From: a virus
DNA: 64,000 nucleotides
Direction: 5' to 3' (one strand)
IMG/VR virus record: IMGVR_UViG_3300032223_002232
Coordinates: 105,764 to 169,763 of that record
Shown: positions 40,968 to 55,488 of the stretch, piece by piece
Numbering within the stretch: the first letter of the stretch is position 1
Layout: the number at the start of each line of letters is the position of its first letter
Translations under genes and position numbers: made by a program
The notes under the pieces: model-generated
What the model was told of the DNA's origin: nothing
What the model saw: only the letters and a program-made list of their open reading frames with translations
The model's database searches: none

Positions 40968-40970
40968 ATC

Positions 40971-41240
40971 ATGAATAAATTTGATTTATTAGTATCAAGA
41001 ATACTTACAGAAGCTAATTGCACAAAAGTCACACAAAAAACACATTCTACCAGAAAAGGTAAAAAGTGGATGAAATGTGTTAAGAACCCAAAAGGTGGAT
41101 ATAAAAGAATTCATTGGGGTCAAGCTGGTGTAAGGGTTGGAAAAAATAATCCAAAAAGAAGAAAATCATTTCGTGCTAGACATAAATGTTCTGGCGCAAA
41201 ACCCGGAACTCCAAAATATCAGGCTTGTAAAGATTGGTAA
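40971..41240 (+). CDS. Basic putative capsid-targeted protein with Cys/Trp-rich domain
   Basis: 89 residues, very basic. The N-terminus MNKFDLLVSRILTEANC matches the plan of capsid-targeting peptides of T4 internal proteins (about 10-14 residues ending at an (I/L)xE cleavage site); cleavage after L-T-E would release a 75-residue basic domain. That domain, WMKCVKNPKGGYKRIHWGQAGVRVGKNNPKRRKSFRARHKCSGAKPGTPKYQACKDW, has the R-K-S-F-x-A-R-H-x-C pattern of a small family widespread in phages, of unknown function and probably metal-binding. Likely packaged with or bound to DNA; inferred. Confidence 0.65.
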   Translation: MNKFDLLVSRILTEANCTKVTQKTHSTRKGKKWMKCVKNPKGGYKRIHWGQAGVRVGKNNPKRRKSFRARHKCSGAKPGTPKYQACKDW

Positions 41241-41246
41241 AAAGTG

Positions 41247-41254
41247 TAAGTATA
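41247..41254 (+). promoter_or_regulatory. Late promoter box
   Basis: TAAGTATA on the + strand, 6 nt before the ATG at 41261. Confidence 0.5.
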
Positions 41255-41260
41255 TTTGTT

Positions 41261-41674
41261 ATGAGTAAATTCGATTCTATTTTAGAAACATACATTAAGG
41301 AAGGCACTGTTACAATTAATACTGACACTGCCGCCGCTGATGCAACTAAACTAAAAGGAACGCAATTAGGAAATGCTTTAGGACAGATTGCAGGTGCTGA
41401 ACAACAAGGTGTGACTGATCCAAATTCAATAAAACAACCAGCTGATATTATGCATGGTGTTTTAAGTGATGATAAAGTAAATCCATTAACTTGGGATAAA
41501 GTTAATGAACAAGACAAAGCAAAAGTTTTAGCTGCTTTAGTTGATAAAAAAATAATCCCACCATTACAAGCACAACAAGAAGCTGGTAAGGATAACAAAA
41601 AAGAAACACCATCAATAAGTGCAAGTACAACACCTCAATCTTCACAGCAAGGTGGTACATTACAAGGTGTTTAA
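41261..41674 (+). CDS. Putative capsid-targeted small protein
   Basis: 137 residues from ATG 41261; the start 27 nt upstream would precede the late box. MSKFDSILETYIKEGTV is the same type of leader as in the gene before it, ending in I-K-E followed by Gly, a prohead-protease-like site. The rest is soluble, Ala/Gln/Asp-rich and helical (ATKLKGTQLGNALGQIAGAEQQGV, DKVNEQDKAKVLAALVDKKIIPPLQAQQE) with a Ser/Thr/Gln-rich tail. The middle resembles small helical head proteins; the function is unknown. Confidence 0.65.
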   Translation: MSKFDSILETYIKEGTVTINTDTAAADATKLKGTQLGNALGQIAGAEQQGVTDPNSIKQPADIMHGVLSDDKVNPLTWDKVNEQDKAKVLAALVDKKIIPPLQAQQEAGKDNKKETPSISASTTPQSSQQGGTLQGV

Positions 41675-41675
41675 T

Positions 41676-41692
41676 TAATCCACAATGGATTA
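41676..41692 (+). repeat. Hairpin between capsid-targeted gene and phoH
   Basis: TAATCCA, loop CAA, TGGATTA: 7-bp perfect stem starting 2 nt after the upstream stop and ending 6 nt before the phoH ATG. Too short and lacking a T run to be a confident terminator; it may stabilise an mRNA end or mask the start. Confidence 0.5.
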
Positions 41693-41698
41693 TAATTT

Positions 41699-42580
41699 AT
41701 GAGCAAAAAAATGCGCCCTAAAAAGGGTTCTGACAGAAAACAATCTGGCAGAATCAATCACGAAACAACTAACCCACAGGTTGGTAAACAAGAGGATAAT
41801 TCTCCTTATGTATTTCAAAGAGACAAAATATCTTTTGATTTAACAATCAAAAATTTACCTTGGACAAATAAACAAAAAGAAATTATAGCAAGATTTCTTG
41901 ATAAAGGTACAAAGGTATTGATGCTTAAAGGTCCAGCAGGAACAAGTAAAACAACTCTTGCTATGTATTGTGGATTAATGCTTCTCAACATGAGAAGAAT
42001 TTCAGATATGGTTCTTGTGAGATCAGCAGTTGAATCTTCTGATTCTAAATTAGGGTTTTTACCCGGAACTCTTGATGAAAAGATTGCAGTTTATCTTACA
42101 CCATTCCATGACAAATTTGAAGAACTCCTCTGCAAAGCCCAATTAGACAGGCTCCAGAAGGACAATCGTTTAACAATTTGCCCAATCAACTTTGCAAGAG
42201 GTCTTCACTTTTCTGCAAAATTTGTTTGTGCTGATGAAGTACAGAATTTTTCTAAAAAAGAAATTCATACTCTCATGAGTCGTATTGGTGAATTCTCAAA
42301 GGTATTTCTTTGTGGTGATCCAGAACAGAGTGATCTTCCTTATGGTAAATCAGGCTTTGATAAAGTTTACAATCTTTTTGATAATGATGAAGCAAAAGCT
42401 CAAGGTATATTCTGTATGGAATTAACTGAAGATGATATTGTTCGTTCTGAACTTTGCAAATTCATTACACATAAGTTTAAAGAACTTTATATTGCCGATC
42501 AACATAAAGATGCTCAACATCAACAGCATATTAAAGAGAATCAACATAAAGATGCTTGGAAACCATCAGAAGGTAAGTAA
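41699..42580 (+). CDS. phoH: PhoH-like P-loop ATPase
   Basis: 293 residues. Walker A KGPAGTSKTTLA near residue 78, VLVRSAVESSDSKLGFLPGTLDEKIAVYLTPFHDKF, Walker B FVCADEVQNFSKKEIHTLMSRIG and VFLCGDPEQSDLP are the PhoH signature blocks. PhoH-like proteins are common in phages; they are ATPases with helicase or RNase links and a role in phage biology that is unsettled. The N-terminus is basic; the C-terminus has an unusual His/Lys/Gln stretch with a repeated Q-H-K-D-A motif. A small zinc-ribbon gene follows 9 nt later. Confidence 0.88.
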   Translation: MSKKMRPKKGSDRKQSGRINHETTNPQVGKQEDNSPYVFQRDKISFDLTIKNLPWTNKQKEIIARFLDKGTKVLMLKGPAGTSKTTLAMYCGLMLLNMRRISDMVLVRSAVESSDSKLGFLPGTLDEKIAVYLTPFHDKFEELLCKAQLDRLQKDNRLTICPINFARGLHFSAKFVCADEVQNFSKKEIHTLMSRIGEFSKVFLCGDPEQSDLPYGKSGFDKVYNLFDNDEAKAQGIFCMELTEDDIVRSELCKFITHKFKELYIADQHKDAQHQQHIKENQHKDAWKPSEGK

Positions 42581-42585
42581 GTATA
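42578..42585 (+). promoter_or_regulatory. Late promoter box overlapping the phoH stop codon
   Basis: TAAGTATA, whose TAA is the phoH stop codon, ends 4 nt before the ATG at 42590. Confidence 0.5.
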
Positions 42586-42589
42586 TATT

Positions 42590-42772
42590 ATGAATAATAA
42601 TCCCCAATATCAGAATGTAGAAAACAGACCAATCGGTTGTACTTTTTGTGGCGCACATGTCCAAGGAAGAGTTAATGAAAAACTCAATCCTAAAACAAAA
42701 CAAGTTATAAAAGAATGCCGTTGGGTTTGTTCTCGTTGCGGTAACGTTGTTAAAATCGGAAACGTTAACTAA
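42590..42772 (+). CDS. Small zinc-ribbon protein
   Basis: 60 residues with two knuckles, C-T-F-C (CTFCGAH) and C-S-R-C (CSRCGNVVKIG), about 30 residues apart: a four-cysteine zinc ribbon. Such small proteins can bind RNA polymerase or nucleic acid. It sits between phoH and the next gene, whose ATG overlaps its stop (TAATG). No closer function can be given. Confidence 0.65.
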   Translation: MNNNPQYQNVENRPIGCTFCGAHVQGRVNEKLNPKTKQVIKECRWVCSRCGNVVKIGNVN

Positions 42773-43266
42773 TGGATCTAAACCAGATACTTGAAGAAAT
42801 CTATGATAGGGGTGGTGGTAGCTATCCAGCTTACAGCCAAGCTCCTCGTAAAGATTTTGCTCCAATATCTACAAAGGGAGGATATGATTATCCTTATCAA
42901 CAAACAGGTGTAGCTGGTGCTTTTACCGAGCCACCACCAGATGCACCTATAATTTTACCTTGGCCTATGCAAACCGTTACTGATGATTTAGCTGATGGAT
43001 TTGTATTGATAATGTCAGCAGCAAATAAAATTGTGCAATGTGTTAATTCAAATCCAGCTTTAACTGAAACACAAAAAGAAGAATTAATAGAAATTTATAA
43101 GAAAACAAAACAGGCTTTAGATTTAATTAAAACAGTTGGAATTAATATTGGTAAATCAAATATAGCTGGTCCTCAACCATCACAGAATCCAGTTCCAGCA
43201 CCAGCAAACCCAGCACCAGATTCTCTTCCAAGTACAGGTAATACAGTAGTAATTAAATTACCTTGA
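42772..43266 (+). CDS. Unidentified late protein with proline-rich ends
   Basis: 164 residues. It starts MDLNQILEEIYDRGGGSYPAY, loosely like the capsid-targeting leaders of its neighbours (I-L-E and E-I-Y-D) but without a clear cleavage site. The N-terminal third is Tyr/Pro-rich, the centre is a helical domain (DDLADGFVLIMSAANKIVQCVNSNPALTETQKEELIEIYKKTKQALDLIK) and the C-terminus is a Pro/Ala linker. Translation is probably coupled to the zinc-ribbon gene. Likely virion-associated, by context. Confidence 0.6.
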   Translation: MDLNQILEEIYDRGGGSYPAYSQAPRKDFAPISTKGGYDYPYQQTGVAGAFTEPPPDAPIILPWPMQTVTDDLADGFVLIMSAANKIVQCVNSNPALTETQKEELIEIYKKTKQALDLIKTVGINIGKSNIAGPQPSQNPVPAPANPAPDSLPSTGNTVVIKLP

Positions 43267-43291
43267 CAATAATATTCTAACACTATAGTAT
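43263..43291 (+). promoter_or_regulatory. Consensus sigma-70-type promoter
   Basis: TTGACA, a 17-nt spacer and TAGTAT, ending 6 nt before the ATG at 43298; predicted leaderless transcript. The -35 begins within the stop region of the preceding gene. Confidence 0.75.
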
Positions 43292-43297
43292 AGTGCT

Positions 43298-43732
43298 ATG
43301 GATAAAAACAAAATTCGTTGGGATATAATACAGTCAACATTAACTGTTATTTTTACATCATCTCTTATTGCGGTATCAGCACTCCTTTTTGGTATTAATT
43401 GGATTGCAACATTTATATTAGCATTTGTTTTACAATATATTTTATTTTCATTTTTTGGAAATATTATTAACAATTATTTTGCAGAGAAAACAAGACAAAA
43501 ACAATTAGATACATTAGAACCACTTTCAACTATTTTAGAATGTGCATATTGTAATGCAAAAAACATAATGACATTTCTTCCAGATGAAACTGAAAGAATT
43601 GAATTTGAATGTGATTCTTGTAAGAAGAAAAATCTTGTTAGTATTCAGTTTGTTGTTGCAAGAATTACAGATGCTGTTACTATTAATACAACAACCAACA
43701 TTCCTTTAATCGATGAAAAAAATGAAATCTAA
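43298..43732 (+). CDS. Membrane protein with C-terminal zinc ribbon
   Basis: 144 residues. Two hydrophobic segments (LTVIFTSSLIAVSALLFGI and ATFILAFVLQYILFSFFG) span about residues 14-55 and probably form a hairpin in the host inner membrane. The soluble C-terminal part has CAYC and CDSC knuckles about 30 residues apart, a zinc-ribbon pattern, then a beta-rich end. It is driven by a consensus early promoter, so it may act on the host envelope early in infection; inference. The last 20 nt overlap the next gene. Confidence 0.7.
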   Translation: MDKNKIRWDIIQSTLTVIFTSSLIAVSALLFGINWIATFILAFVLQYILFSFFGNIINNYFAEKTRQKQLDTLEPLSTILECAYCNAKNIMTFLPDETERIEFECDSCKKKNLVSIQFVVARITDAVTINTTTNIPLIDEKNEI

Positions 43733-44015
43733 AAATTGGGAAAACATTCACGATGAAGCATCCAAGTGGGCTAGATGGATTGCATTATATGAAGCTGTAA
43801 ATTATCTTGCAGATAAAGCACAAGAGAAAGGTTTAAAGTTTGAAAAGTTAGATTTAAAGCCTCTTAAAATATTAGAGTATATTGAATCAACACAAGATAT
43901 TATTTTAAGAAAATTATTGAAACAAGAATATAATATTGATGTATGTTATTCAGATGTTCAATATGATTCAGAATTAAATCCTATTCCACAAAAAGAATAT
44001 CAATATTCACCGTAA
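43713..44015 (+). CDS. Unidentified small helical protein
   Basis: 100 residues; MKKMKSKNWENIHDEASKWARWIALYEAVNYLADKAQEKGLKFEKLDLKPLKILEYIESTQD is mainly amphipathic helix with charged residues. An ATG 9 nt later is an alternative start. It is in the same early operon as the membrane protein and overlaps it by 20 nt. Its 3' end overlaps the convergent neck gene by 16 nt. No family recognised. Confidence 0.55.
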   Translation: MKKMKSKNWENIHDEASKWARWIALYEAVNYLADKAQEKGLKFEKLDLKPLKILEYIESTQDIILRKLLKQEYNIDVCYSDVQYDSELNPIPQKEYQYSP

Positions 44016-44629
44016 ACACTATCATTACTACAAGGATTTTCTTCTTCGTAGTTAAAGTTAGAATCAGCAAGTTGTTCTAATATGTCATTATCATTATTAG
44101 CAACATTTCCGATACCAGAACCCGGTGATCCATTTTCGAATGAGTAGTCGTATCTCTTGGCTTTCCAGAACCAAACATAGTGACCACCTAAAGCATTTAA
44201 TTGAAATTCATCAATAACTTCAGTTAATTCATATACAGATGGTCCTCTTTTTGGAAAATTAATACGATCACTACCAAATTCTTCCATGAATAAAAGATCA
44301 CCATTTTTAGGTTCAGCAGATACACCAAATGCAGTTGTAAAATGTTTGGGATGAATAACACCTGTCATATCACTATCAGCTACAATACCAAATTTTGACA
44401 ATAGATAAGAATCATTCGTAAGGTTTAATAATACAATTAAAGGTTTTGATGCTGCAAATCCAGCATCAGGTTCTTCACCATAAAGAACATTCATTCCTGT
44501 CAACGATGATTGATTTGAATAGTATTGTATTTGTTGTCCGTAAATTCCTATTTGCTCATACCACCAATTAGAAAAGTTTTGCCTTTCTTGTGTATTAACA
44601 CCTTTATTTAAATAACGTAATGTTTCCAT
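44000..44629 (-). CDS. 14: Neck/head-completion protein, gp14-like
   Basis: 209 residues (T4 gp14: 256). NFSNWWYEQIGIYGQQIQYYSNQ, VLYGEEPDAGFAASKPLIVLLNLTNDSYLLSKFGIVADSDMTGVIHPKHFTTAFG, PKNGDLLFMEEFGSDRINF and YELTEVIDEFQLNALGGHYVWFWKAKRYDYSFENG follow the family order of T4-like neck proteins (G-E-x-P, S-K-F-G-I, G-D-L, K-R-Y-D-Y-S-x-E). It closes the head and joins it to the tail. A rare good Shine-Dalgarno, AGGAG, 6 nt before the ATG lies in the stop region of the preceding gene. Confidence 0.7.
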   Translation of the reverse strand: METLRYLNKGVNTQERQNFSNWWYEQIGIYGQQIQYYSNQSSLTGMNVLYGEEPDAGFAASKPLIVLLNLTNDSYLLSKFGIVADSDMTGVIHPKHFTTAFGVSAEPKNGDLLFMEEFGSDRINFPKRGPSVYELTEVIDEFQLNALGGHYVWFWKAKRYDYSFENGSPGSGIGNVANNDNDILEQLADSNFNYEEENPCSNDSVYGEY

Positions 44630-45016
44630 TTATTCTCCTTTATATTTCAATATATAAACTTTAGGTGATATTAAAACTAAATGAACACCAGTTTGTTTTA
44701 TTGCCTTTGATGTTTCTTGTGGTGTTGGACAAACATTATATTTTTGTATAATATCAAGTGCTTCTGGATGAGATAAAGCAACGCCTTGATTTGGATCTTT
44801 TCTATTTAAACATAAAGTAATTTTAGGATGTTCATGTTTTTTTTCTGTATGAGTCTTTGCAACGAAATATGGATTTTTTCTATTAAGACCTGAACCCATT
44901 AATCTACCAACAGTTTTATGATGTTCACTTCCAGTATTAATACCCATCTTTGATGCTTTCTTTTCATCAGCACTTAAAGATAAGGCATTTCCATTATAAA
45001 AATCTTTAAAATTCAC
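44630..45016 (-). CDS. Unidentified late protein upstream of the neck gene
   Basis: 128 residues, GTG start directly after a TAAGTATA box. MNFKDFYNGNALSLSADEKKASKMG is again a short F-x-D/N leader but lacks an (I/L)xE site. The rest is basic (KKHEHPKITLCLNRKDPNQGV) with an alpha/beta end (ALDIIQKYNVCPTPQETSKAIKQTGVHLVLISPKVYILKYKGE). Its last codons contain the ribosome-binding site of the neck gene, so the two are translated together. Probably a head or neck morphogenesis protein, by context. Confidence 0.6.
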   Translation of the reverse strand: MNFKDFYNGNALSLSADEKKASKMGINTGSEHHKTVGRLMGSGLNRKNPYFVAKTHTEKKHEHPKITLCLNRKDPNQGVALSHPEALDIIQKYNVCPTPQETSKAIKQTGVHLVLISPKVYILKYKGE

Positions 45017-45033
45017 AAGTATACTTACACAAA

Positions 45034-45057
45034 AAAACCCCGCCGTAGCGGGGTTTT
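45034..45057. terminator. Bidirectional-type rho-independent terminator
   Basis: CCCCGC, loop CGTA, GCGGGG, flanked by an A run on one side and T run on the other. It lies 19 nt beyond the stop of the - strand gene ending at 45076, so it should terminate that transcript before the next late promoter. Confidence 0.88.
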
Positions 45058-45075
45058 CTTTTATATTAATTTATT

Positions 45076-45942
45076 TTATTCTTGATCAAATAAAGTCTTA
45101 CCAACTTTATCTACAGAACCAACTTTGTTACTACCTTTACCAGTGTGCTTTGAAACACCAGCTTCTGTGGAGTGAGCTTTTGCTACACCATCATGGCCTT
45201 TACCTGTTGATGGTGTTTGTGCTGACTTCTTTGTTACTGGAACTGCACCTTTAACTTCTTTCTTTGACTTATCTGCTAAAGATAAACCTTCAGCACCAGC
45301 GAGTTCTTGCATATCAACTGCTTCCTTGAATGGATTCTCGCCTTCTTCAGACTCTTCACCCTCTTCGGAACCACCAAATGCATGTTCAGCTTCTTCTTCA
45401 CCTTCAGACTCTTCACCTTCATGTTCTTCATCACCAACGAGAACGTTTTGAAGAAGTTCAAGTAATTTGTGTGCTGTTTCTTTATCAAGTTCAAGAGTTA
45501 CTGTTTCATCTTCACCCTCTTCACCTTCACCGAACTCGTCGGATTCTTCATCAGATGATTCGCCACCAAATGGTTCAGCTACTCCAAAAGATGAATCTTC
45601 TGGTGTCTTGCCTGTTGAGAAGGACATTTCTTCGCCTTCTTCACTTAAAATTTTGCTATATAATGCATCAAATGGATTCTTTGCTTCATAAGAAACTGAA
45701 TTCTTTTTAGCTTCACCATCTGTTTCTGCACTCTGTGTTAAGTGTGCAGGTGCTTCTTCTGGTGATTCAACATCATCAGCTGATTCAGGTCCAGTTTTCT
45801 TTTGCGGTGCTTTATTTTTTTCACTTTCAGCGTTGCCGAAAACTTTACCAGTTTGTGAGGTTTCACCTTCAACCTTCTGACCTTTTTGGAGATCTTCAGA
45901 TTCTGTGATGATTTTGAGATATGCTTTTGTTAATGGGTCCAT
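45076..45942 (-). CDS. Very acidic head-type protein with two prohead-protease-like sites
   Basis: 288 residues, extremely rich in Glu, Ser and Gly (stretches such as SSDEESDEFGEGEEGEDE). The N-terminus MDPLTKAYLKIITESED ends in I-T-E followed by Ser, and a second copy of the same leader type, NPFDALYSKILSEEGEE, lies near residue 90. Both fit (I/L)xE cleavage sites of T4 prohead protease gp21. The C-terminal 80 residues are basic and Ser/Gly/His-rich. This suggests a prohead core or internal protein that is cut during maturation. Preceded by a perfect TATAAATA box and followed by a strong terminator, so it is expressed alone and late. Confidence 0.65.
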   Translation of the reverse strand: MDPLTKAYLKIITESEDLQKGQKVEGETSQTGKVFGNAESEKNKAPQKKTGPESADDVESPEEAPAHLTQSAETDGEAKKNSVSYEAKNPFDALYSKILSEEGEEMSFSTGKTPEDSSFGVAEPFGGESSDEESDEFGEGEEGEDETVTLELDKETAHKLLELLQNVLVGDEEHEGEESEGEEEAEHAFGGSEEGEESEEGENPFKEAVDMQELAGAEGLSLADKSKKEVKGAVPVTKKSAQTPSTGKGHDGVAKAHSTEAGVSKHTGKGSNKVGSVDKVGKTLFDQE

Positions 45943-45949
45943 ATGTTGT

Positions 45950-45957
45950 TATTTATA
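45950..45957 (-). promoter_or_regulatory. Late promoter TATAAATA
   Basis: Exact T4-type late core TATAAATA on the - strand, 7 nt before the ATG at 45942. Confidence 0.7.
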
Positions 45958-45992
45958 TTTACCCTACACTTATTCCATTTCCATATTTTTTT

Positions 45993-46796
45993 TTACAAAT
46001 TATTTAATATGGTTTCTGCTTCGTCTTTTAAATTAAGTGTTGGATATAATATATAATTATCCTTTCCACATACCCAAACGATATTTCCATCACCAACTTC
46101 AAATGGTGTATTCCTTTCTATAATCAGCTTATAGAGCCATATTTGTAAACTATATTTTACAAGCTCACAATTTTGTAAATGTGTAAATGGTGCAAGTAAT
46201 CTTTCACCTCTTGGATTTTCAATTTTAATTTCTTTATTAGTCTTATAATCAAATATAGATAACTTCTTTGTTTTTTTGTTATATGACAAATTATCAAGAG
46301 TTCCACATAATTTGGATTTATCATCACCAATTACAAATTCAGATTTTATTAAAACGTGATCTTGCTTCCACCATTCATAAAAATTTAAAAAGTTATTAAT
46401 AAGATGTGCCATTTCACCATAATATTGATCAACATCAGATTGATCAAATTTACTTTTATTTTGTGCAAGGAACACCATAAAAGCTTCCTTATCCAAAGCA
46501 ATCTTTCTACGTTCTAAGAAATTCTCTACAAATAAATGAAACTCAGATCCTTTATGACAAGAATAATCTCTTTTATAAGCCCATTCAGCTAATACATCAT
46601 CAACATCCTTACCATCACGTTTCGCTACATTCCTAGCAACACGATCAGTTTCAAATTCCTTTTCATATTTCTTTAATGCACCAGAGACTGAAGTCTTTGC
46701 TGGTGTATCACCTATAGTGTATTTGTGATTTTTATCAAAGAATTTTACATGTGAAAATGCTTCAGTTAATGTTACGAGAGAGTCAAAATTAAGCAT
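45993..46796 (-). CDS. PD-(D/E)XK family nuclease
   Basis: 267 residues from ATG 46796 (MLNFDSLVTL), which overlaps the upstream stop by 8 nt; an ATG 51 nt earlier would give a 59-nt overlap. HKGSEFHLFVENFLERR is the N-terminal helix with the conserved His-Glu of RecB/Cas4-like nucleases, VIGDDKSKLCGTLDNLSYNKKTKKLSIFDYKTNKEI supplies the catalytic G-T-L-D and D-Y-K-T core, and LQNCELVKYSLQIWLYKLIIE is the Q-x-x-x-Y-like motif. It is probably a DNA exonuclease. It forms an operon with the AAA ATPase upstream. Confidence 0.8.
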   Translation of the reverse strand: MLNFDSLVTLTEAFSHVKFFDKNHKYTIGDTPAKTSVSGALKKYEKEFETDRVARNVAKRDGKDVDDVLAEWAYKRDYSCHKGSEFHLFVENFLERRKIALDKEAFMVFLAQNKSKFDQSDVDQYYGEMAHLINNFLNFYEWWKQDHVLIKSEFVIGDDKSKLCGTLDNLSYNKKTKKLSIFDYKTNKEIKIENPRGERLLAPFTHLQNCELVKYSLQIWLYKLIIERNTPFEVGDGNIVWVCGKDNYILYPTLNLKDEAETILNNL

Positions 46797-48006
46797 TGCC
46801 GAATCCGATAACTCTGTTTGATTCTGATTTTTTGGGTTTGTTTCCATATAGTTCTACTTCTTTTTCTAAATTATAAATGTCACTTATTGATAAAGGTTCA
46901 GTAATTTTTTCTTCAATAAATTTCTTTGGGTACTTCAAATGTTTTGCAAGTTTTTTAGCATCCTCAATTGATAACGCACCAAACTCATATTCAGCTTGAA
47001 GTCTACCCTTTCTCTTTAGAGCATCATCAATATCTTGTTTAGGGCAATTGTAAGTTACAATTACTGAAGTCTTTAATATATCACTAAGGATACCATCTGA
47101 CAAGTTTAATAATGATGATACAGCAGATGAATCCATTCCATCACCCTGTCTTTTCATAATTGCCTTTTCAGCATCTTCAAGAATGATGACAGAGTTTGGT
47201 TTTGAAATTAAAGTATGTAAACAGTTTGGATCAGAAGTAAAATTCTCAATCATTGTTGTTGGGATGTAAATGAAATCCCTATTAACTTTATCTGCTAAAT
47301 ACTTGATATAGGTAGTTTTACCAGTTCCGGGCATTCCATGAAACATGAATAAACCATTGGGTTTCTCCATAAGTCTCTCTTTAATAAGTTTATCAATTGG
47401 TAAAAAGTCTTTACCATAATTTAATTCCAAATTTAAATCCTTTGGAAGATTAACTGAAATTGGTTCAAACGTATATTCACCAAATTGGTTTTTAATAAAT
47501 AAGTGAACTTTTGTTTTATTGTCATCAGCAACAATAAACTGATCAAAATCAGATATATCAATTTTTTCTAAGTTTGATGGATATGTTATATGTAAGTTAT
47601 ATATTTTCTTTTCAGTTATTTTTTTCTTATCATCTTCTGAAACAATACCAACATCTCTTAATCTGTAGCTTAAACCAAACTCATCATCTGATGATTCATT
47701 TTTAACTGAAATCTTTAAGTAATAATTTTTATACTTGAACCAGAAAAATCCATTTTTAAAGTTCTTGTAATCAGATTGACATGGTTTTAATTCACCGTTA
47801 ATTGATGAATTAAGGTATATCGCATTTTTAAGTAAAAATGGTAAAATCCCCTCACTAAAGGTATCATCCAAATAAAGATATGATGGAGCAAACCCATAAG
47901 TCGTTGTAATGTAATTCCTTATAGGGAAATCATTGCTCATTTCTACTTTAAAGTGTGTATCTTCAGTGTTAATAGACACTACGTTGTTTTTTCTTATTGG
48001 AAGCAT
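46789..48006 (-). CDS. AAA ATPase, BCS1-like
   Basis: 405 residues. The N-terminal 210 residues are not recognised. The AAA core has Walker A GMPGTGKTTYIKYLADKV near residue 232, Walker B NSVIILEDAEKAI near 275, a sensor-1-like SVIVTYNC and the arginine-finger region ALKRKGRLQAEYEFGALSIEDA, an order typical of BCS1/FtsH-like AAA proteins. It is translated just before a PD-(D/E)XK nuclease, so it may load or remodel DNA or protein for it. A sigma-70-type promoter precedes it. Confidence 0.78.
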   Translation of the reverse strand: MLPIRKNNVVSINTEDTHFKVEMSNDFPIRNYITTTYGFAPSYLYLDDTFSEGILPFLLKNAIYLNSSINGELKPCQSDYKNFKNGFFWFKYKNYYLKISVKNESSDDEFGLSYRLRDVGIVSEDDKKKITEKKIYNLHITYPSNLEKIDISDFDQFIVADDNKTKVHLFIKNQFGEYTFEPISVNLPKDLNLELNYGKDFLPIDKLIKERLMEKPNGLFMFHGMPGTGKTTYIKYLADKVNRDFIYIPTTMIENFTSDPNCLHTLISKPNSVIILEDAEKAIMKRQGDGMDSSAVSSLLNLSDGILSDILKTSVIVTYNCPKQDIDDALKRKGRLQAEYEFGALSIEDAKKLAKHLKYPKKFIEEKITEPLSISDIYNLEKEVELYGNKPKKSESNRVIGFGNA

Positions 48007-48012
48007 TCTTAT

Positions 48013-48040: not shown

Positions 48041-48084
48041 TAAAATATTGACATTCCATTAATTTTATTAGATCATGCTTTTCT

Positions 48085-48481: not shown

Positions 48482-48486
48482 AAGAG

Positions 48487-48515: not shown

Positions 48516-48537
48516 TTAATAAGTAGTACACAACTTT

Positions 48538-49509: not shown

Positions 49510-49512
49510 AGG

Positions 49513-49520
49513 TAAATATT
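49513..49520 (+). promoter_or_regulatory. Late promoter box
   Basis: TAAATATT on the + strand, 4 nt before the ATG at 49525, inside the nrdB-nrdA cluster. Confidence 0.45.
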
Positions 49521-49524
49521 GAAT

Positions 49525-49701
49525 ATGAGAAATAAAGATACAATTTTATTAGAGAATGCTTATAATTCTATTTTAGAAGCTAAAATGTGTAAATGTAAAT
49601 GTGATTGTGAAGCATGTAAAGAAAAAAAGTGCAAGGATTGCAAACATAAAAATTGCGATTGCGATTGTGAAGGTTGCGAATGTAAAAAGAAAAAAGATTA
49701 A
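49525..49701 (+). CDS. Metallothionein-like 12-Cys peptide with capsid-targeting-like leader
   Basis: 58 residues from ATG 49525; a TTG 6 nt upstream is an alternative. The C-terminal 37 residues hold 12 cysteines in C-x-C and C-x2-C patterns with Lys, Asp and Glu between them (CKCKCDCEACKEKKCKDC), the plan of metallothioneins and Cys-rich metal carriers. The N-terminus MRNKDTILLENAYNSILEAK resembles the capsid leaders elsewhere in the window, with I-L-E followed by Ala as a cleavage site. It lies between nrdB and nrdA but has a late-type box. Either a packaged metal/redox peptide or a partner for the reductase. Confidence 0.65.
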   Translation: MRNKDTILLENAYNSILEAKMCKCKCDCEACKEKKCKDCKHKNCDCDCEGCECKKKKD

Positions 49702-49741
49702 TTCATAAAATAAAACTATAATTTGATTGCTATCTAGCATC

Positions 49742-49768
49742 AATTTGATAAGATAGATATATCAAATT
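49742..49768 (+). promoter_or_regulatory. Inverted repeat directly before nrdA
   Basis: AATTTGATA (49742-49750) and TATCAAATT (49760-49768) form perfect 9-bp arms around 9 nt, ending 1 nt before the nrdA ATG. A possible operator or RNA hairpin controlling the start; no consensus promoter was found here. Confidence 0.6.
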
Positions 49769-49769
49769 T

Positions 49770-51446
49770 ATGAGTACCGAAACGCAGCAAACAGAGATTT
49801 ATTGGCTTAACAAAGATTCTAGAAAGTTCCTCCAAAGAGGATATTTGTTAGAAGGAGAAACACCAGAGCAAAGAATTTCTGACATTGCAAAAACAGCACA
49901 GAAACTTTTAGTAGAGTTTACAGGTGATACAAAGTTTGCAAAAAAGTTTGAAGATTATATGCACAGAGGATTTTATTCTCTTGCTTCTCCCATTTGGTCT
50001 AACTTTGGTCGTAAGAGAGGTCTTCCTATTTCTTGTTTTGGTTCTCATATTCCTGACACAATGGCAGGAATTCTTGAGAAGGTTGCTGAAGTTGGAATCA
50101 TGACAAAGAATGGTGGAGGTACTTCTGCTTATTTTGGTGATCTCAGAGCAAGAGGAACGGAGATTTCATCTGGTGGTGAATCTACTGGTTCAATTCACTT
50201 TATGGAGCTTTATAATAAGCTTATGAGCGTTGTATCGCAAGGTAATGTTCGTCGTGGATCATTTGCAGCTTATCTTCCAATTGATCATGGTGATATTGAA
50301 GAGTTTTTAAAGATTCGTGGTGAAGGTAACGAGATCCAAGATCTTTCAATTGGTGTCACTATTACTGATGCTTGGATGAAGTCCATGCTTGATGGTGACA
50401 AAGAGAAGAGAAGAATTTGGGGATTGGTACTCAAGAAGAGATTTGAGTCTGGTTATCCATATATTTTCTTTACTGATAATGTAAACAAACAAGCACCAAA
50501 AGTTTATAAGGATTTGAAGATGAAGATTACCCAATCTAATCTTTGCACAGAAATTATGCTTCCAAATAATGAAGATGAATCATTTGTTTGTGATCTTTCT
50601 TCAATGAATTTGGAGAAGTGGGAAGAGTGGAAAGATACTGATGCAGTAGAGACTATGATTTATTTCTTAGATGCTGTTATGTCAGAATTCATTGGAAAAA
50701 CATATGGTATGAAATTCATGGATGCTCCTCGCAATTTCGCAATTCGTCATCGTGCATTAGGTCTTGGTGTTCTTGGTTGGCATTCTCTCTTGCAGTCAAA
50801 AATGATTGCATTTGAGTCAATGGAAGCAAAACTTCTTAATTCAACTATTTGGAAAACAATTCGTGAAAGAGCAGATAAGGCTAGTATTGAACTTGCTCAA
50901 TTAATTGGTGAACCATTACTCCTCAAGGGATATGGTCGTAGAAACACCACAACGCTTGCTGTAGCCCCTACAACTTCTTCCTCATTTATCTTAGGTCAGG
51001 TTAGTCCGTCTATTGAACCAAATAATAGTAACTATTATGTTAAGGATCTTGCCAAAGGAAAGTTCTCATATAAGAATCCCTATCTCAAGAAGCTCTTAAA
51101 AGAAAAAGGTAAGAATGATGATGACACTTGGATGGACATTCTCAAGCATAGTGGATCGGTTCAGCATGTTGATTTCCTCACCCAAGAAGAGAAAGATGTA
51201 TTCAAGACATTTGAAGAAACATCACAAAAAGAAATCATTATTCAAGCTGCTGGTCGCCAAAAATACATTGATCAGGGTCAGAGTTTAAATATGCTTATCC
51301 CTGCTGGAACACCACCAAAAGCTGTTAATGAACTTATTATCTTTGCTTGGGAACAGGGTATTAAGAGTCTTTACTATCAGAGATCAACCAACCCAGCAAA
51401 AGAACTTGCTCGTTCAATCATGACATGCAAATCTTGTGAGGCATAA
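49770..51446 (+). CDS. nrdA: Ribonucleotide reductase class I large subunit NrdA, short form
   Basis: 558 residues, against about 750 in T4 and E. coli. Active-site residues are present: Cys89 (ISCFGSH) and Cys274 (FVCDLSSMNLE) as the redox pair, Asn257, Cys259 and Glu261 in NLCTEI for radical chemistry, Tyr535-Tyr536 for radical transfer, and CKSC (Cys553, Cys556) at the C-terminus for re-reduction. There is no room for an N-terminal ATP cone, so it should not be shut off by dATP. The cluster supplies dNTPs together with dCMP deaminase and dNMP kinase. Confidence 0.92.
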   Translation: MSTETQQTEIYWLNKDSRKFLQRGYLLEGETPEQRISDIAKTAQKLLVEFTGDTKFAKKFEDYMHRGFYSLASPIWSNFGRKRGLPISCFGSHIPDTMAGILEKVAEVGIMTKNGGGTSAYFGDLRARGTEISSGGESTGSIHFMELYNKLMSVVSQGNVRRGSFAAYLPIDHGDIEEFLKIRGEGNEIQDLSIGVTITDAWMKSMLDGDKEKRRIWGLVLKKRFESGYPYIFFTDNVNKQAPKVYKDLKMKITQSNLCTEIMLPNNEDESFVCDLSSMNLEKWEEWKDTDAVETMIYFLDAVMSEFIGKTYGMKFMDAPRNFAIRHRALGLGVLGWHSLLQSKMIAFESMEAKLLNSTIWKTIRERADKASIELAQLIGEPLLLKGYGRRNTTTLAVAPTTSSSFILGQVSPSIEPNNSNYYVKDLAKGKFSYKNPYLKKLLKEKGKNDDDTWMDILKHSGSVQHVDFLTQEEKDVFKTFEETSQKEIIIQAAGRQKYIDQGQSLNMLIPAGTPPKAVNELIIFAWEQGIKSLYYQRSTNPAKELARSIMTCKSCEA

Positions 51447-51447
51447 T

Positions 51448-51840
51448 ATGAAAATTGCACCAGACATAATAACTGAATTAAAAGATAATGAAATCTTTGT
51501 ATTTGGATCAAATGAAGCAGGTATACATGGAGCAGGAGCAGCCAAGTTAGCTAGAGAAAAATTCGGAGCTATTGGTGGTGAAGGTTTTGGTTTACAAGGT
51601 AAATCATATGCAATTCCAACAAAAGATTATGATATTATCACTTTAAATCTTAATATAATTAATCGTTATGTAAAAGCATTTTTAGTAGAAGCATATAGAT
51701 ATTCTGATTTAAATTTTCTTGTAACAGAGATTGGTTGTGGGCTTGCTGGTTATAAACCAGAAGATATTGCACCATTATTTAAAAGTTCATCAGAAAATGT
51801 TTTTTTACCAAAAAGATTTGTTGATATTTTAACAAAGTAA
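51448..51840 (+). CDS. Macro-domain-like phage protein
   Basis: 130 residues from ATG 51448, 1 nt after the nrdA stop. EIFVFGSNEAGIHGAGAAKLAREKFGAIGGEGFGLQGKSYAIPTKDYDI and FLVTEIGCGLAGYKPEDIAPLFKSSSENVFLP match the macro-domain-like family (F-G-S-N-x-A-G-x-H-G-A-G-A-A, and T-x-I-G-C-G-x-A-G-Y) found in many phages and bacteria. Macro domains bind or cleave ADP-ribose. In a phage that could serve NAD+ metabolism or undo host ADP-ribosylation defences; inference from the family. Confidence 0.8.
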   Translation: MKIAPDIITELKDNEIFVFGSNEAGIHGAGAAKLAREKFGAIGGEGFGLQGKSYAIPTKDYDIITLNLNIINRYVKAFLVEAYRYSDLNFLVTEIGCGLAGYKPEDIAPLFKSSSENVFLPKRFVDILTK

Positions 51841-51855
51841 TATAAAATATTACAT

Positions 51856-52155
51856 ATGATAAAAACAATTCAAACAAGAGAAGAAGCTTATATTCAATTC
51901 ACAGATGAAGAAATTGCAGAGCTTGGCTTAAAGCAAGGCGATGAGTTTGAAGTATCACCAACAGAAGATGGTGGATACATCTTTAAAAAGATGGAAGAGA
52001 TTGAACTTGATCTCAATGAATTCCCAAGAGAGCTTCTTGAATTGTTAATCAAGAAATCTTGTGAAAAGAATGTATCAATTAATACAATCATTAGAGATGC
52101 ATTAAAGGTTTTTGTTGATAGAGATCCAGTATTTGATAATATCAATGCAGAATAA
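51856..52155 (+). CDS. AbrB/MazE-like DNA-binding protein with helical C-terminus
   Basis: 99 residues. YIQFTDEEIAELGLKQGDEFEVSPTEDGGYIFKK is a swapped-hairpin AbrB/MazE domain (L-x-L-K-x-G-D-x-x-x-V). The second half (FPRELLELLIKKSCEKNVSINTIIRDALKVFVD) resembles a ribbon-helix-helix dimerisation segment. Such proteins are repressors or antitoxins; no toxin gene is apparent next to it, since the YopX-like neighbour is not a known toxin. It could regulate the nrd cluster. The last 11 nt overlap the next gene. Confidence 0.7.
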   Translation: MIKTIQTREEAYIQFTDEEIAELGLKQGDEFEVSPTEDGGYIFKKMEEIELDLNEFPRELLELLIKKSCEKNVSINTIIRDALKVFVDRDPVFDNINAE

Positions 52156-52489
52156 TTTCAGATTTAGATCTTGGAATATCTTAAATAAAGATTTTATATA
52201 TTGGGGTTTGTTTGATCAAGACCCAAGAGGTGAGATAACTTTTGGTACAAGTGATCCACAACAGTCCACAGGTCTATTTGATAAAGAAGAAAAGGAAATT
52301 TACGTTGGTGATTATATCTTTTGTATAGATGATATGGAATTTTATGAAGTCTTATTTTATAAGGGCATGTATGTAATTAAGATTGTAGATGGTGATTACT
52401 CACCACTGTATGATTATACATTTGATAGTATTGTAGTTGGTAATGTGTTTAGCACAACGATTGACATACTAAAGAAAAGTTTAGGGTAG
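52145..52489 (+). CDS. YopX-like phage protein
   Basis: 114 residues from ATG 52145 (MQNNFRFRSWN). FRFRSWNILNKDFIYWGLF, QQSTGLFDKEEKEIYVGDYIFCIDDMEFYEVLFY correspond to YopX features: an aromatic N-terminus, T-G-L-x-D-x-x-x-x-x-I-Y-x-G-D and the following SH3-like strands. YopX proteins are common in phages and of unknown function. The stop codon TAG lies inside the acceptor stem of the tRNA-Tyr that begins at 52484, so gene and tRNA overlap by 6 nt on the same strand. Confidence 0.72.
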   Translation: MQNNFRFRSWNILNKDFIYWGLFDQDPRGEITFGTSDPQQSTGLFDKEEKEIYVGDYIFCIDDMEFYEVLFYKGMYVIKIVDGDYSPLYDYTFDSIVVGNVFSTTIDILKKSLG

Positions 52490-52567
52490 GTATACCGCTA
52501 AGGAGGCGGCTTGGTCTGTAAAACCAATGTTGTAATGACTCGTCGGGATCGTTACCCGAACTACCCA
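52484..52567 (+). tRNA. tRNA-Tyr (anticodon GUA)
   Basis: 84 nt, class II with a long variable arm. Acceptor GGGTAG pairs with CTACCC, the anticodon stem-loop is TTGGT-CTGTAAA-ACCAA (GTA), and the T arm is TCGGG-ATCGTTA-CCCGA with a slightly unusual loop. CCA is not encoded. The 5' end contains the stop codon of the YopX-like gene. A mismatch at the seventh acceptor pair is possible. Confidence 0.82.
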
Positions 52568-52572
52568 TACTT

Positions 52573-53223
52573 TTAATTCTTTGGCTTGAATACAGCCTTC
52601 TTGAATTTAGGTCTACGATCATCTGGTCGCCTGTTAATGTCTTTAATAGGACAAGCACAATGCTTTTGTAAGATGCATTCAGAGCAACCATAATCAAGAA
52701 AGATATCTGGACGATGGCAAGCAAAGTTTGTAAACGCCTTACAAGCGTCTTTGTCTTTGACTAAGCTGATTGGCTCACGAGCCTTATAAAAATCGATTTT
52801 AGGCAGCGTCTCGCTAATTGCATCACGCCTTGCTTGCATCTCTTCTCTCGTTAAGACCTGCACAACCTTATCTTTCTTTTCAACTTCTGGTTTTGGTTTG
52901 CAATTTTTACAAACAGATTCAGTTAAAACACGTTTCATGTCACCATCAAACTTCTTCATGGCATGAGCCATACCAATTCCTTTAAGACCAATAAAGTCCG
53001 TATGGCAGACAGAACACACAACTCTATTGTGTGGTAATTTCTTTGTTTCGTTCCAAATCTTGAGCCATTGATCAAGATTTTCTAATTGATTTATAGGAAT
53101 ACTCACAATTTTTCTGTCCTTTTTAGAAGGACGGATTTTCTGTTTCTTGACCTTTTTAGAAGGCTTGATTTTTAAAGCTTTTACTTTCTTTGTGGGTTTC
53201 TTGGTAGGCTTTTTCTTTTTCAT
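52573..53223 (-). CDS. Lys-rich protein with several cysteine pairs
   Basis: 216 residues. The first 40 are a repetitive basic tract (K-P-T-K-K and K-P-S-K-K units, R-P-S-K-K) that could bind nucleic acid. Then come CSVCHTD, CKNC, and CSECILQKHCAC with further Cys and His, suggesting two or three zinc sites (a treble-clef or HNH-like finger is possible). It is coupled to the small membrane protein upstream by an ATGA overlap and ends 5 nt from the tRNA-Tyr on the other strand. Function unknown. Confidence 0.6.
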   Translation of the reverse strand: MKKKKPTKKPTKKVKALKIKPSKKVKKQKIRPSKKDRKIVSIPINQLENLDQWLKIWNETKKLPHNRVVCSVCHTDFIGLKGIGMAHAMKKFDGDMKRVLTESVCKNCKPKPEVEKKDKVVQVLTREEMQARRDAISETLPKIDFYKAREPISLVKDKDACKAFTNFACHRPDIFLDYGCSECILQKHCACPIKDINRRPDDRRPKFKKAVFKPKN

Positions 53224-53357
53224 AGGACACTATTTAACAATAAGAGTGAAAAGATTACAAGAAAAAAAAGTGGGAAAGTTTTGATTAAAATATAAATGCA
53301 AACAATTGCACCAAATATTAAAATCAAATATCTTATTTCTTTAAACAAGTTTTTCAT
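53220..53357 (-). CDS. 45-residue membrane peptide
   Basis: A short gene starting ATG-AAA-AAC at 53357: after MKNLFKEIRY, two hydrophobic stretches (LILIFGAIVCIYILI and PLFFLVIFSLLL) separated by K-T-F. Its TGA stop overlaps the ATG of the next gene (ATGA). It is preceded by a perfect TTGACA-17-TAATAT promoter. Coding status is supported by the promoter, the coupling and the two-helix composition. It may act on the host membrane or be an auxiliary lysis or superinfection peptide; the role is unknown. Confidence 0.65.
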   Translation of the reverse strand: MKNLFKEIRYLILIFGAIVCIYILIKTFPLFFLVIFSLLLLNSVL

Positions 53358-53365
53358 TGCGTTTT

Positions 53366-53394
53366 ATATTAGGGTATGCTATATTTAATGTCAA
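53366..53394 (-). promoter_or_regulatory. Consensus sigma-70-type promoter
   Basis: TTGACA, 17-nt spacer, TAATAT on the - strand; the -10 ends 8 nt before the ATG at 53357. It drives the membrane peptide and the Lys-rich gene. Confidence 0.78.
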
Positions 53395-53396
53395 GG

Positions 53397-53404
53397 TAAA
53401 TATA
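53397..53404 (+). promoter_or_regulatory. Late promoter box
   Basis: TAAATATA on the + strand, only 2 nt before the ATG at 53407. It lies 2 nt from the divergent -35 box. Confidence 0.45.
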
Positions 53405-53406
53405 TC

Positions 53407-53778
53407 ATGAATAATTTTAATATGTATGTCGAAAAGGTTGAAGAAGATTTAAAAGATAAAGAGTTTCAAATGTTTCTAGCAAAAAGAAAAGCTGGAGCAA
53501 GTAAACTTGCAATCCAAACAAAAAACAAAGGTGGTTATTCCAAATTAACAGCAATTCATTATGAAGCCAAAGCAAAACCTTATGCTGAATCATTAAAACA
53601 TGCTGATGATAAAAATAGAGAATCATTTTTTAAAATGAAAGCAAAAGAAGTTTATAGTAAATTGAGCAATCTTGATTCTTTATCGCAAAGAGATTTTCAA
53701 TCATTGATGGGTCAATTAGAAGTTTGGGGTGAGGTTTATATCAGATCAAAGAAACCATCAAGCATCAAGTTGGATTAA
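53407..53778 (+). CDS. Unidentified late helical protein
   Basis: 123 residues, basic and helical throughout (MNNFNMYVEKVEEDLKDKEFQMFLAKRKAG, AIHYEAKAKPYAESLKHADDKNRESFFKMKAKEVYSKL, DSLSQRDFQSLMGQLEVWGEVYIRSKKP). The leader looks distantly like the capsid-targeting peptides but has no clear (I/L)xE site at the right distance. A late box is 2 nt from the ATG. The 3' end overlaps the convergent dCMP deaminase gene by 21 nt. Probably virion-associated. Confidence 0.6.
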   Translation: MNNFNMYVEKVEEDLKDKEFQMFLAKRKAGASKLAIQTKNKGGYSKLTAIHYEAKAKPYAESLKHADDKNRESFFKMKAKEVYSKLSNLDSLSQRDFQSLMGQLEVWGEVYIRSKKPSSIKLD

Positions 53779-54153
53779 TTCTATTCCAAATTTCTTTGCA
53801 AGTTCAAGTGTTGATGGATCAAATTTATAAACTTCTTTGTAAATGATCTTTTTAATGCCATAAGCAGCTAATGACTTAAGACAGTCATTACAAGGTAATA
53901 ACGTTGTAGCAGCCATGTAACACTCATTAGGTTTAACGTAACGCAATGCATTAATTTCCGAATGAACAACATATTTCCTACGTTCACCACGATTACTCCA
54001 ATCCTCTTCCATACCAGCAGGAAATCCATTGTAGCCTAATGATGCAATACTATTATCATGCCTTAGAAGACAACATCCTACAGTTTGCCAAGGATCTTTA
54101 GATTTAAGTGCTGCTACTTCAGCTAATTTAAGAGCGTATTGATTCCAATCCAT
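53758..54153 (-). CDS. cd: dCMP deaminase
   Basis: 131 residues. The zinc-deaminase motifs are intact: VVHSEINAL with His64 and the proton-shuttling Glu66 (usually H-A-E, here H-S-E), and LLPCNDCLKSLAAYGI with Cys88 and Cys91. SKDPWQTVGCCLLRHDNSIASLGYNGFPAG is the family N-terminus. It turns dCMP into dUMP for thymidylate synthesis, which matters here because the ThyX in this window is truncated. It is 1 nt from the HNH gene's stop and is probably co-transcribed with it. Confidence 0.88.
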   Translation of the reverse strand: MDWNQYALKLAEVAALKSKDPWQTVGCCLLRHDNSIASLGYNGFPAGMEEDWSNRGERRKYVVHSEINALRYVKPNECYMAATTLLPCNDCLKSLAAYGIKKIIYKEVYKFDPSTLELAKKFGIELIQLDA

Positions 54154-54154
54154 A

Positions 54155-54739
54155 TTATGCAGTTTTTAAAAACATATTCCATTCGGCTATATTATGTTTA
54201 TTTTTAATGTAAAACGTTGAAGGTAAATGTCTTGGAATAACTGGTTGTTTAATTAATTTCAAACCAGCTTCCTCTGGAGTTCTATTTGCCTTCTTAGCAT
54301 TAATTTCTTTATGGGAGAGAACACAATTATCCCAATTAGATCTACCACCTCTACTTCTTGGAATGACATGATCTACGTTACCTTCATTTTTAGAAAGCTT
54401 TTTACCAGTATATTGACATATACCACCATCACGATTCCAAACTCCACTCAAGGAAAATTTAGGACGTTTAAGTGGTACTTTATCAAAATGACAAAGAACT
54501 ATAACTTTTGGAATTTTAATTTCACCATTAATTGTTTTTACATAATCTGATTCTGGATCGTTTGGTAAATTAATCCAATCATTCCATTTATATGGAATCA
54601 TTTGATCTTCACCCAAAATATCTAATCCAGTTGCATTATCTGTATACATCATCGACAAAGCTTCTGCTGGTGATTTTACATGAATTGCTTGCCAATTCCG
54701 ATTAAGGACAAGTACAGTAGTTCTATTGAGATTACTCAT
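54155..54739 (-). CDS. HNH endonuclease
   Basis: 194 residues. VLVLNRNWQAIHVKSPAEALSMMYTDNA is the N-terminus of a widespread free-standing HNH family, and CQYTGKKLSKNEGNVDHVIPRSRGGRSNWDNCVLSHKEINAKKANR gives the H-V-I-P-R-S-R-G-G-x-x-x-W-x-N-C core with the catalytic D-H, Asn and a closing helix. It may act as a homing-type or host-DNA nuclease. It lies next to the tRNA array, a common site for mobile genes, and has a consensus promoter. Confidence 0.85.
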   Translation of the reverse strand: MSNLNRTTVLVLNRNWQAIHVKSPAEALSMMYTDNATGLDILGEDQMIPYKWNDWINLPNDPESDYVKTINGEIKIPKVIVLCHFDKVPLKRPKFSLSGVWNRDGGICQYTGKKLSKNEGNVDHVIPRSRGGRSNWDNCVLSHKEINAKKANRTPEEAGLKLIKQPVIPRHLPSTFYIKNKHNIAEWNMFLKTA

Positions 54740-54747
54740 ATTATTAT

Positions 54748-54776
54748 ATATTATTTATTATCTAGTGGTTTGTCAA
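54748..54776 (-). promoter_or_regulatory. Consensus sigma-70-type promoter for the HNH gene
   Basis: TTGACA, 17-nt spacer, TAATAT on the - strand; the -10 ends 8 nt before the ATG at 54739. It begins only 8 nt beyond the tRNA-Asp. Confidence 0.78.
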
Positions 54777-54783
54777 GAAAATG

Positions 54784-54857
54784 CGGAATTGACGAGGCTC
54801 GAACTCGCAACCCTCGCCGTGACAGGGCGATGCTCTGACCAATTGAGCTACAATTCC
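54784..54857 (-). tRNA. tRNA-Asp (anticodon GUC)
   Basis: 74 nt; acceptor GGAATTG/CAATTCC, anticodon stem-loop TCGCC-CTGTCAC-GGCGA (GTC), T loop TTCGAGC, discriminator G as normal for Asp. CCA is not encoded. Confidence 0.93.
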
Positions 54858-54863
54858 GTTTCA

Positions 54864-54936
54864 TAGGACTAGTAGGGATCGAACCTACGACAAACACGTT
54901 ATCAACATGCCACTCTACCAACTGAGTTATAGTCCT
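54864..54936 (-). tRNA. tRNA-Ile (anticodon GAU)
   Basis: 73 nt; acceptor AGGACTA/TAGTCCT, anticodon stem-loop GCATG-TTGATAA-CGTGT (GAT), T loop TTCGATC, discriminator A. CCA is not encoded. Confidence 0.92.
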
Positions 54937-54943
54937 GATAAAA

Positions 54944-55019
54944 TGGTACACGATGAGGGACTTGAACCCCCGACAAACAGAATGTAAATCTGCCACTCTA
55001 CCAACTGAGTTAATCGTGC
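54944..55019 (-). tRNA. tRNA-Val (anticodon UAC)
   Basis: 76 nt; acceptor GCACGAT/ATCGTGT (first pair G-T), anticodon stem-loop GCAGA-TTTACAT-TCTGT (TAC), T loop TTCAAGT. Unlike the other five tRNAs, its CCA end is encoded. Confidence 0.9.
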
Positions 55020-55029
55020 TTATTAATAT

Positions 55030-55058
55030 ATACTATAATAATAATTACATATTGTCAA
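55030..55058 (-). promoter_or_regulatory. Promoter for the tRNA-Val-Ile-Asp operon
   Basis: TTGACA, 17-nt spacer, TAGTAT on the - strand, with the first tRNA 10 nt downstream. It follows the upstream terminator immediately. Confidence 0.8.
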
Positions 55059-55063
55059 TAAAA

Positions 55064-55083
55064 AAGCCATCTCACGATGGCTT
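55064..55083 (-). terminator. Rho-independent terminator
   Basis: AAGCCATC, loop, GATGGCTT (8-bp stem, 4-nt loop) followed on the - strand by a run of T. It ends the transcript of the gene that stops at 55114; the tRNA promoter begins right after. Confidence 0.85.
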
Positions 55084-55113
55084 CTTTAAATTGGTATAAA
55101 CCAAGAAGTAAAT

Positions 55114-55488
55114 TTACTTACGATACATGATTGCATTAGCAACATGCACAATATAATCATTTGCAATAGCAATCTTCTCTTCCATCCAAGGGTCAATGTT
55201 AGCACCATTTTCTAAACATGTAGAAATTTCATGTGCATGTGATCTGATTGTATGAAGATGGGATGCAACCATTCTTTGTTTCTCTTCTTCATTATCTTCC
55301 ATATCTTTAACACTAATATCATGTGTTTCAATATTATCACCAACATTATCCTCACCCATTTCAGACTCATGACCAAGTGACATTTCTTCACCATTTCCCT
55401 GCTCTAAATCATCTTTTGGTGCAAATTCTTTATCAAGAACTACATCATCATAAGCTTCCATTAATGAAATATAATCTTTTCTATTCAT
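55114..55488 (-). CDS. Putative capsid-targeted protein with acidic linker and helical domain
   Basis: 124 residues. MNRKDYISLMEAYDDVV matches the capsid-leader plan with L-M-E followed by Ala as a possible cleavage site. A very acidic linker (residues 20-70) follows. The C-terminal domain KQRMVASHLHTIRSHAHEISTCLENGANIDPWMEEKIAIANDYIVHVANAIMYRK is of a type often seen in T4-like phages, where W-M/V-x-x-K-I-x-x-A-x-x-Y-I-x-x-V recurs in small proteins of unknown function. Late box before the ATG, terminator after the stop. Confidence 0.68.
   Translation of the reverse strand: MNRKDYISLMEAYDDVVLDKEFAPKDDLEQGNGEEMSLGHESEMGEDNVGDNIETHDISVKDMEDNEEEKQRMVASHLHTIRSHAHEISTCLENGANIDPWMEEKIAIANDYIVHVANAIMYRK

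Follow-up and report, generated by a model that had tools for sequence, protein, structure and literature searches.

In phage T4, the prohead protease gp21 cuts after L/I-x-E, and the capsid-targeting sequence (CTS) is a propeptide of 10-19 residues (PMC9026906). Hydrophobic positions 4 and 7 of this propeptide have been mapped by mutation in IPIII, and the core proteins of T4 are cut at many places. In IPI-IPIII, the short propeptide ends in L/I-x-E before a small residue, and the leader is common to small mature proteins that are unrelated to each other, with ipII and ipIII both starting as MKTYQEFIAE↓A (the arrow marks a known or predicted cut). A conserved leader on unrelated proteins also characterizes the polymorphic, variable internal-protein loci of the T-even phages, whose products are injected to counteract restriction (Repoila et al., 1994, cited in PMC12373910). 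The head ejection proteins of phiKZ and SPN3US, which we liken by description rather than by sequence, similarly have propeptides that are removed after Glu by a gp21-related protease, although the cut motif of phiKZ is S/A-x-E (PMC9026906). Moreover, virion enzymes of the cyanophages S-CREM2 and S-SCSM1 begin with T4-type leaders, such as MKNFSSFLTE↓A and MKSFLQFLKE↓A; their cargo proteins differ from those described here, and the leader is not named in the accessible parts of the reports.

The 64,000-nucleotide stretch analysed here (the window) corresponds to bases 105764-169763 of a 169,763-base record from a T4-like phage and includes T4-like tail genes. An earlier note on this DNA had proposed that five of its proteins share a capsid-targeting leader. 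A search of the complete genome for a gp21-like protease and more leaders, as the note had suggested, identified both, the protease gene lying close to those for gp22 and gp23:

record 71619-72287, minus strand: gp21-type prohead protease (PF03420, E=5.5e-29)
record 70401-71294, minus strand: gp22-like scaffold
record 68865-70346, minus strand: gp23

A gp21 gene (PF03420) is also found in seven large relatives. The terminase encoded in the window is only ~34% identical to its best matches from cultured phages, e.g. Sinorhizobium phage phiM9, indicating a clade without a close isolate, and a megablast search of the region against cultured phages gave no match. In each of six genomes compared, gp23 contains a putative cut site of the form WC(L/I)(T/E)E↓(T/A/G/S), equivalent to a region of T4 gp23 that reads FLTE↓A. 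Since this form is the same as that of the leader ends described below, the protease of the clade probably cuts the same type of site.

The five open reading frames and their N-termini proved to be exactly as the note had described them. Instead of one leader common to all five, however, two classes were recognized, with 40971 and 41261 belonging to class I and 49525 and 55488 to class II; a single-family reading was ruled out by the appearance of a second, distinct peptide among the hits. The genes and the promoter-like boxes preceding them are as follows:

40960..40966, plus strand: late-type box TAAATAT before 40971
40971..41240, plus strand: class I leader MNKFDLLVSRILTE↓A (40971-41012) followed by a basic Cys/Trp domain, weakly similar to DUF5754 / phrog_7595
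41247..41253, plus strand: late-type box TAAGTAT before 41261
41261..41674, plus strand: class I leader MSKFDSILETYIKE↓G (41261-41302) followed by a fast-diverging protein
45076..45942, minus strand: very acidic protein with leader MDPLTKAYLKIITE↓S (45901-45942)
45640-45678, minus strand: class-I-like internal site of the 45942 protein, NPFDALYSKILSE↓E
45955..45961, minus strand: late-type box TAAATAT before 45942
49513..49519, plus strand: late-type box TAAATAT before 49525
49525..49701, plus strand: class II leader MRNKDTILLENAYNSILE↓A (49525-49578) followed by a metallothionein-like Cys-rich peptide
55114..55488, minus strand: class II leader followed by an acidic linker and helix
55494..55500, minus strand: late-type box TAAGTAT before 55488

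Class I leaders comprise 13-17 residues with the consensus M..KFDxLVxS(I/L)LxE↓A/S, whereas class II leaders follow M(R/K)xKDQILLExxYxxIL.E↓ or the looser form M(R/K)x(K/R)DxxLLExxYxxIL.E and have two possible cut sites, the first of which in 55488 would follow MNRKDYISLME↓A (55456-55488). Relatives have, next to class II genes, a third leader of the T4 type (MKSFKQYIKE↓, MKTFKKYFLE↓A). The leader of 40971 is kept in most of the 80 loci retained from 332 relatives in viral_contigs. That of 41261 matches the class I regex but has a low PWM score, and its assignment is supported by syntenic relatives. The 45942 leader resembles the second half of class II; both it and the second, internal (I/L)xE copy pointed out in the earlier note are conserved in four orthologs, and a tblastn search with this protein gave no match. 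A propeptide of 10-19 residues ending in L/I-x-E fits all five window proteins and many relatives, the position of the cut being a prediction. Hydrophobic residues at positions 4 and 7 are found in the S-CREM2 leaders and in the T4-type leaders of the relatives. Unlike the leaders of IPI-IPIII, those of class I contain KFD..LV and are longer, and those of class II contain KDQILLExxY..IL.E, with Lys at position 4.

An (I/L)xE ending alone is weak evidence and would not justify the proposal, because the bare [IL]xE motif occurs within the first 20 residues in 25 of 167 proteins outside the reported virion set of the control phage S-CREM2; therefore, the whole leader was tested. A PWM built solely from 40971-family leaders (42 distinct sequences of the form M(N)xKFDxLVxS(I/L)LxE↓A/S) was used to score 1,544 ORFs called in six related genomes, with 3,392 internal-Met sequences as controls. 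The scores of 27 N-termini, 21 of them from other proteins, exceeded those of all 3,392 controls. Regex searches retrieved 27 class I proteins, compared to 4.0 in shuffles, and 29 class II proteins, compared to 2.3. As judged from these sequence comparisons, the full leaders are far above chance. The T4-type regex gave 33 hits in the clade versus 14 in shuffles and, because this excess is only about twofold, was used solely where hits adjoin class II genes. In the 57 unrelated class II proteins, conservation extends beyond the residues fixed by the search: Glu follows LL in 50, Ile or Val stands three residues past Tyr in 42, and the following stretch contains [ILV]xE in 72%, as opposed to 9.5% of control windows. 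Codons vary at the conserved class II positions, suggesting that the peptide, and not the DNA, is under selection. A perfect LxE is missing from some leader-like proteins. The loose class I regex also picked up gp32 and a sheath-like protein, which were regarded as false positives, and a PD-(D/E)XK-like gene (45993-46847, MLNFDSLVTLTE↓AF) was left uncounted despite its high PWM score, because the Glu is lost in an ortholog (LND↓A in G004) and no late box was seen.

The mature parts behind the leaders are indeed unrelated, as previously claimed for the five window proteins. Scanning viral_contigs with a DNA pattern for either leader, together with all collected loci, yielded 175 distinct leader proteins, which blastp comparison from residue 23 onward resolved into 81 cargo clusters (24 class I, 57 class II), with a few of the class I regex matches expected by chance. 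Acetyltransferase, NUDIX, tRNA-nucleotidyltransferase and ADP-ribosyltransferase-like domains are represented. Among class II cargos, GNAT, NUDIX, PolyA_pol+HD and GP88 domains were detected, an ADP-ribosyltransferase-like (ART-like) domain fell just under its cut-off, and most proteins had no family match. Directly downstream of the 40971 homolog, at the locus represented in the window by 41261, 20 distinct relatives, chosen for their KF/HF-type start, show a median identity of 46% in their leaders and 27% in their mature parts, compared to 24% for shuffled sequence. At this locus, the leader is thus kept on a mature part that, by its alignments, has diverged to near chance. Conversely, leaderless versions of the 40971 domain exist in non-T4 phages, namely Roseobacter phage CRP-738, Pelagibacter phage Kolga and Flavobacterium elemo phages. 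At three loci, a domain of this type forms the C-terminal end of a protein of ~600-740 aa (L060 8120-10276, L074 8441-10276, L078 8042-10264), and the long L060 and L078 proteins themselves begin with a MNFDDLYTLALE↓A-like leader.

The genomic context provides further links to the head. In the relative L021, the leader-bearing gene for the 40971-type cargo is flanked by a gp4-like gene (PF08722) and gp21 (PF03420), with a small core gene and gp22 coming next. A 45-kb contig (G011) contains 12 class II genes, ten of them within 34096-42899, that adjoin genes with the T4-type leaders MKSFKQYIKE↓M and MISFKDYFLE↓A; in another contig (G017), MKTFKKYFLE↓A and MKSFKQYIKE↓M are found beside class II genes. 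Several near-matches that the regex did not count are also present in G011 20777-42899 (L266-L268), among them MKKDDILLNEAYNKVIE at 23819 and MTNKDIMLLENAYKKVSE at 40536. Of 19 class II records, most of which are fragments, four encode a terminase, 67-76% identical to that of the window, and only one encodes gp23 or gp21. A tblastn search of cultured phages with the 23-aa class II consensus, a short and therefore weak query, found no homolog.

All five leader genes in the window have the motif TAA(A/G)TAT 4-12 bases upstream of their ATG. Its shorter form TAA(A/G)TA lies within 35 bases upstream of 7/9 leader genes, 11/25 virion genes and 1/17 replication or metabolism genes in the same genome; the gene groups were assigned manually, and two positions taken as replication starts are not start codons. 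In a set of ten genomes or contigs, the box was seen before 36 of 65 class I/II genes and before 287 of 1,851 other genes (Fisher 6e-13), at similar rates in class II (27/47) and class I (9/18). We infer from its sequence and the class of genes it precedes that it represents a late promoter. A different, TTGA...TATAAT-like class is seen before replication genes (gp44, uvsX, gp41), and TAA(A/G)TAT before virion and leader genes; both lie very near start codons (e.g. window 38299 and 31104, minus strand; G000 67730, 118466 and 119875), suggesting short or absent 5' leaders.

Cyanophages offer a comparison with virion data. In the published virion proteome of S-CREM2, which covers 52 of 219 ORFs (PMC10665884), a T4-type core, [FYL]..F[ILMF].E, is present in the first 32 residues of 6/52 virion proteins and 1/167 other proteins (p=8e-4), the pattern having been fixed after the N-termini were viewed, at the positions mapped by mutation in T4. 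The six virion matches are a SAM hydrolase, a kinase, a cytidylyltransferase, a Cas9-like nuclease, in which the core sits further in, and two unknowns. The virion NMNAT of S-SCSM1 begins with MKSFLQFLKE↓A, and another of its virion proteins, beginning MDSKTFNSLSE↓AYAAVY, resembles class II; the stretch test on S-SCSM1 alone (1/8 versus 1/40) was not significant. The leaders on these packaged enzymes lie at loci L147 and L150 (S-CREM2) and L281 (S-SCSM1). The same reading suggests a route into the virion for the cyanophage kinase, SAM hydrolase and NMNAT, whose presence is reported, in the accessible parts of the sources, without a targeting mechanism.

Collectively, we consider it probable that these leaders act as propeptides that target proteins to the capsid and are removed by gp21. 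This part of the earlier proposal fits every indirect test made; what did not stand is a single shared peptide. It draws on the presence of gp21, gp22 and gp23 in the same record and the gp23 site matching the leader ends, on the PWM and regex tests, the ~80 unrelated cargos and the leader outlasting a diverged mature part, on the late-type box in all five genes, the head-cluster position in L021 and the leaderless homologs in non-T4 phages, and on the class II arrays adjoining T4-type leader genes and the enrichment in S-CREM2 virions. Points that weigh against it are the negative tblastn search of cultured phages with the class II consensus, the single class II record encoding gp23 or gp21, the two possible cut sites of class II and the leader-like proteins with an imperfect LxE. 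Leader proteins would be made late in infection, as suggested by the promoter-like box, and, by analogy with T4, the leader would bind the assembling prohead core and thereby bring its attached protein into the prohead. The gp21-type protease would then cut after (I/L/V)xE and free the mature cargo; the step from leader to gp21 cut has good support in class I and is likely in class II. For head loading, support comes from analogy, gene class and the cyanophage proteomes; the mature cargo would remain there with the DNA and, to extrapolate from T4, may reach the next host by ejection. This one route would be served by two or more leader classes and the T4-type leader, joined to many unrelated proteins, and phages of the clade thus probably carry a large, exchangeable protein cargo.

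A shared CTS on unrelated proteins is known from the T-even phages; new are two further leader classes, the size of the cargo and its inclusion of enzymes, and its spread in an uncultured clade. The T-even loci comprise about 10 proteins and one leader, compared to ~80 clusters and two or three classes here, and, in contrast to IPI-IPIII, the far more numerous putative cargos of the clade include enzymes and partly lie in tandem arrays. On balance, we lean towards the view that class II is an undescribed capsid-delivery tag of a deep uncultured clade, in which the head would act as a loadable carrier of swappable effectors, with a cargo far exceeding the three proteins of T4. Because the mature parts of packaged phage proteins have no sequence in common, such proteins are difficult to recognize. 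With a leader that can be read, every genome of the clade yields its own candidates for head loading, which may include anti-defence or host-takeover factors, and the leaders offer testable delivery tags outside T4.

It is conceivable, albeit unlikely, that only class I and the T4-type leader target the capsid, with class II being a different tag (for example for another part of the virion, a chaperone or a host protein) that contains a fortuitous LxE. Its consensus has charged residues at positions that are aromatic in T4, its cut could fall at either of two sites, and its direct virion support is the one resembling protein in the S-SCSM1 data. However, the prevalence of [ILV]xE endings among unrelated class II proteins, their late-type box rate, equal to that of class I, and their position next to T4-type leader genes all argue for a shared route. 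Similarly improbable, in our view, is a scenario in which packaging and cutting do take place but every leader protein serves as a structural or scaffold component of a complex prohead core and none is delivered to the host. The acidic 45942 protein does look like such a part: it has a second conserved site inside, and T4 core proteins are cut at many places, so that it is more likely a core component, which would be cut into pieces like T4 gp22 and gp67, than an injected effector. Nevertheless, cargos include enzymes without an obvious structural role, the content of the arrays differs among relatives, and T4 internal proteins of this design are, in the literature cited above, injected anti-restriction proteins. 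Finally, chance or composition, in the form of hydrophobic N-termini with Glu, is a most implausible source of the resemblance and already disfavoured for classes I and II, because the frequency of bare [IL]xE, the stray gp32 and sheath-like matches and the modest T4-type excess are outweighed by the PWM and regex controls, the conserved residues beyond the search pattern with their varied codons, and the leader kept beside a diverged mature part.

Further leader-bearing members lie where the earlier note could not see them or were missed by it:

G000 5999-6718, minus strand: leader MNKFDSRVNCILNE↓F
G000 94479, minus strand: leader MTKFDITFNKILKE↓N
G000 90427, plus strand: leader MKDKDQILLEKTY
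window 42772..43266, plus strand: tentative short leader MDLNQILEE↓I, with similar leaders on the orthologs from six relatives and without a late box upstream

Several other genes drew attention. By eye, the product of window 55526-57469 (minus strand) resembles a sedolisin/subtilisin-type protease followed by Thr/Pro-rich repeats and adjoins a region of tail-fibre-like composition, and that of 60727-61722 (minus strand) appears adenylosuccinate-synthetase-like and could be a PurZ-type enzyme for modified adenine. Outside the window, a protein without a family or tblastn match (G000 66290-66820, plus strand; L006 7790-8317) starts with MSKFNKYETLLE↓TAFSHYSNGG, is conserved in four relatives and has a late-type box upstream of its gene.
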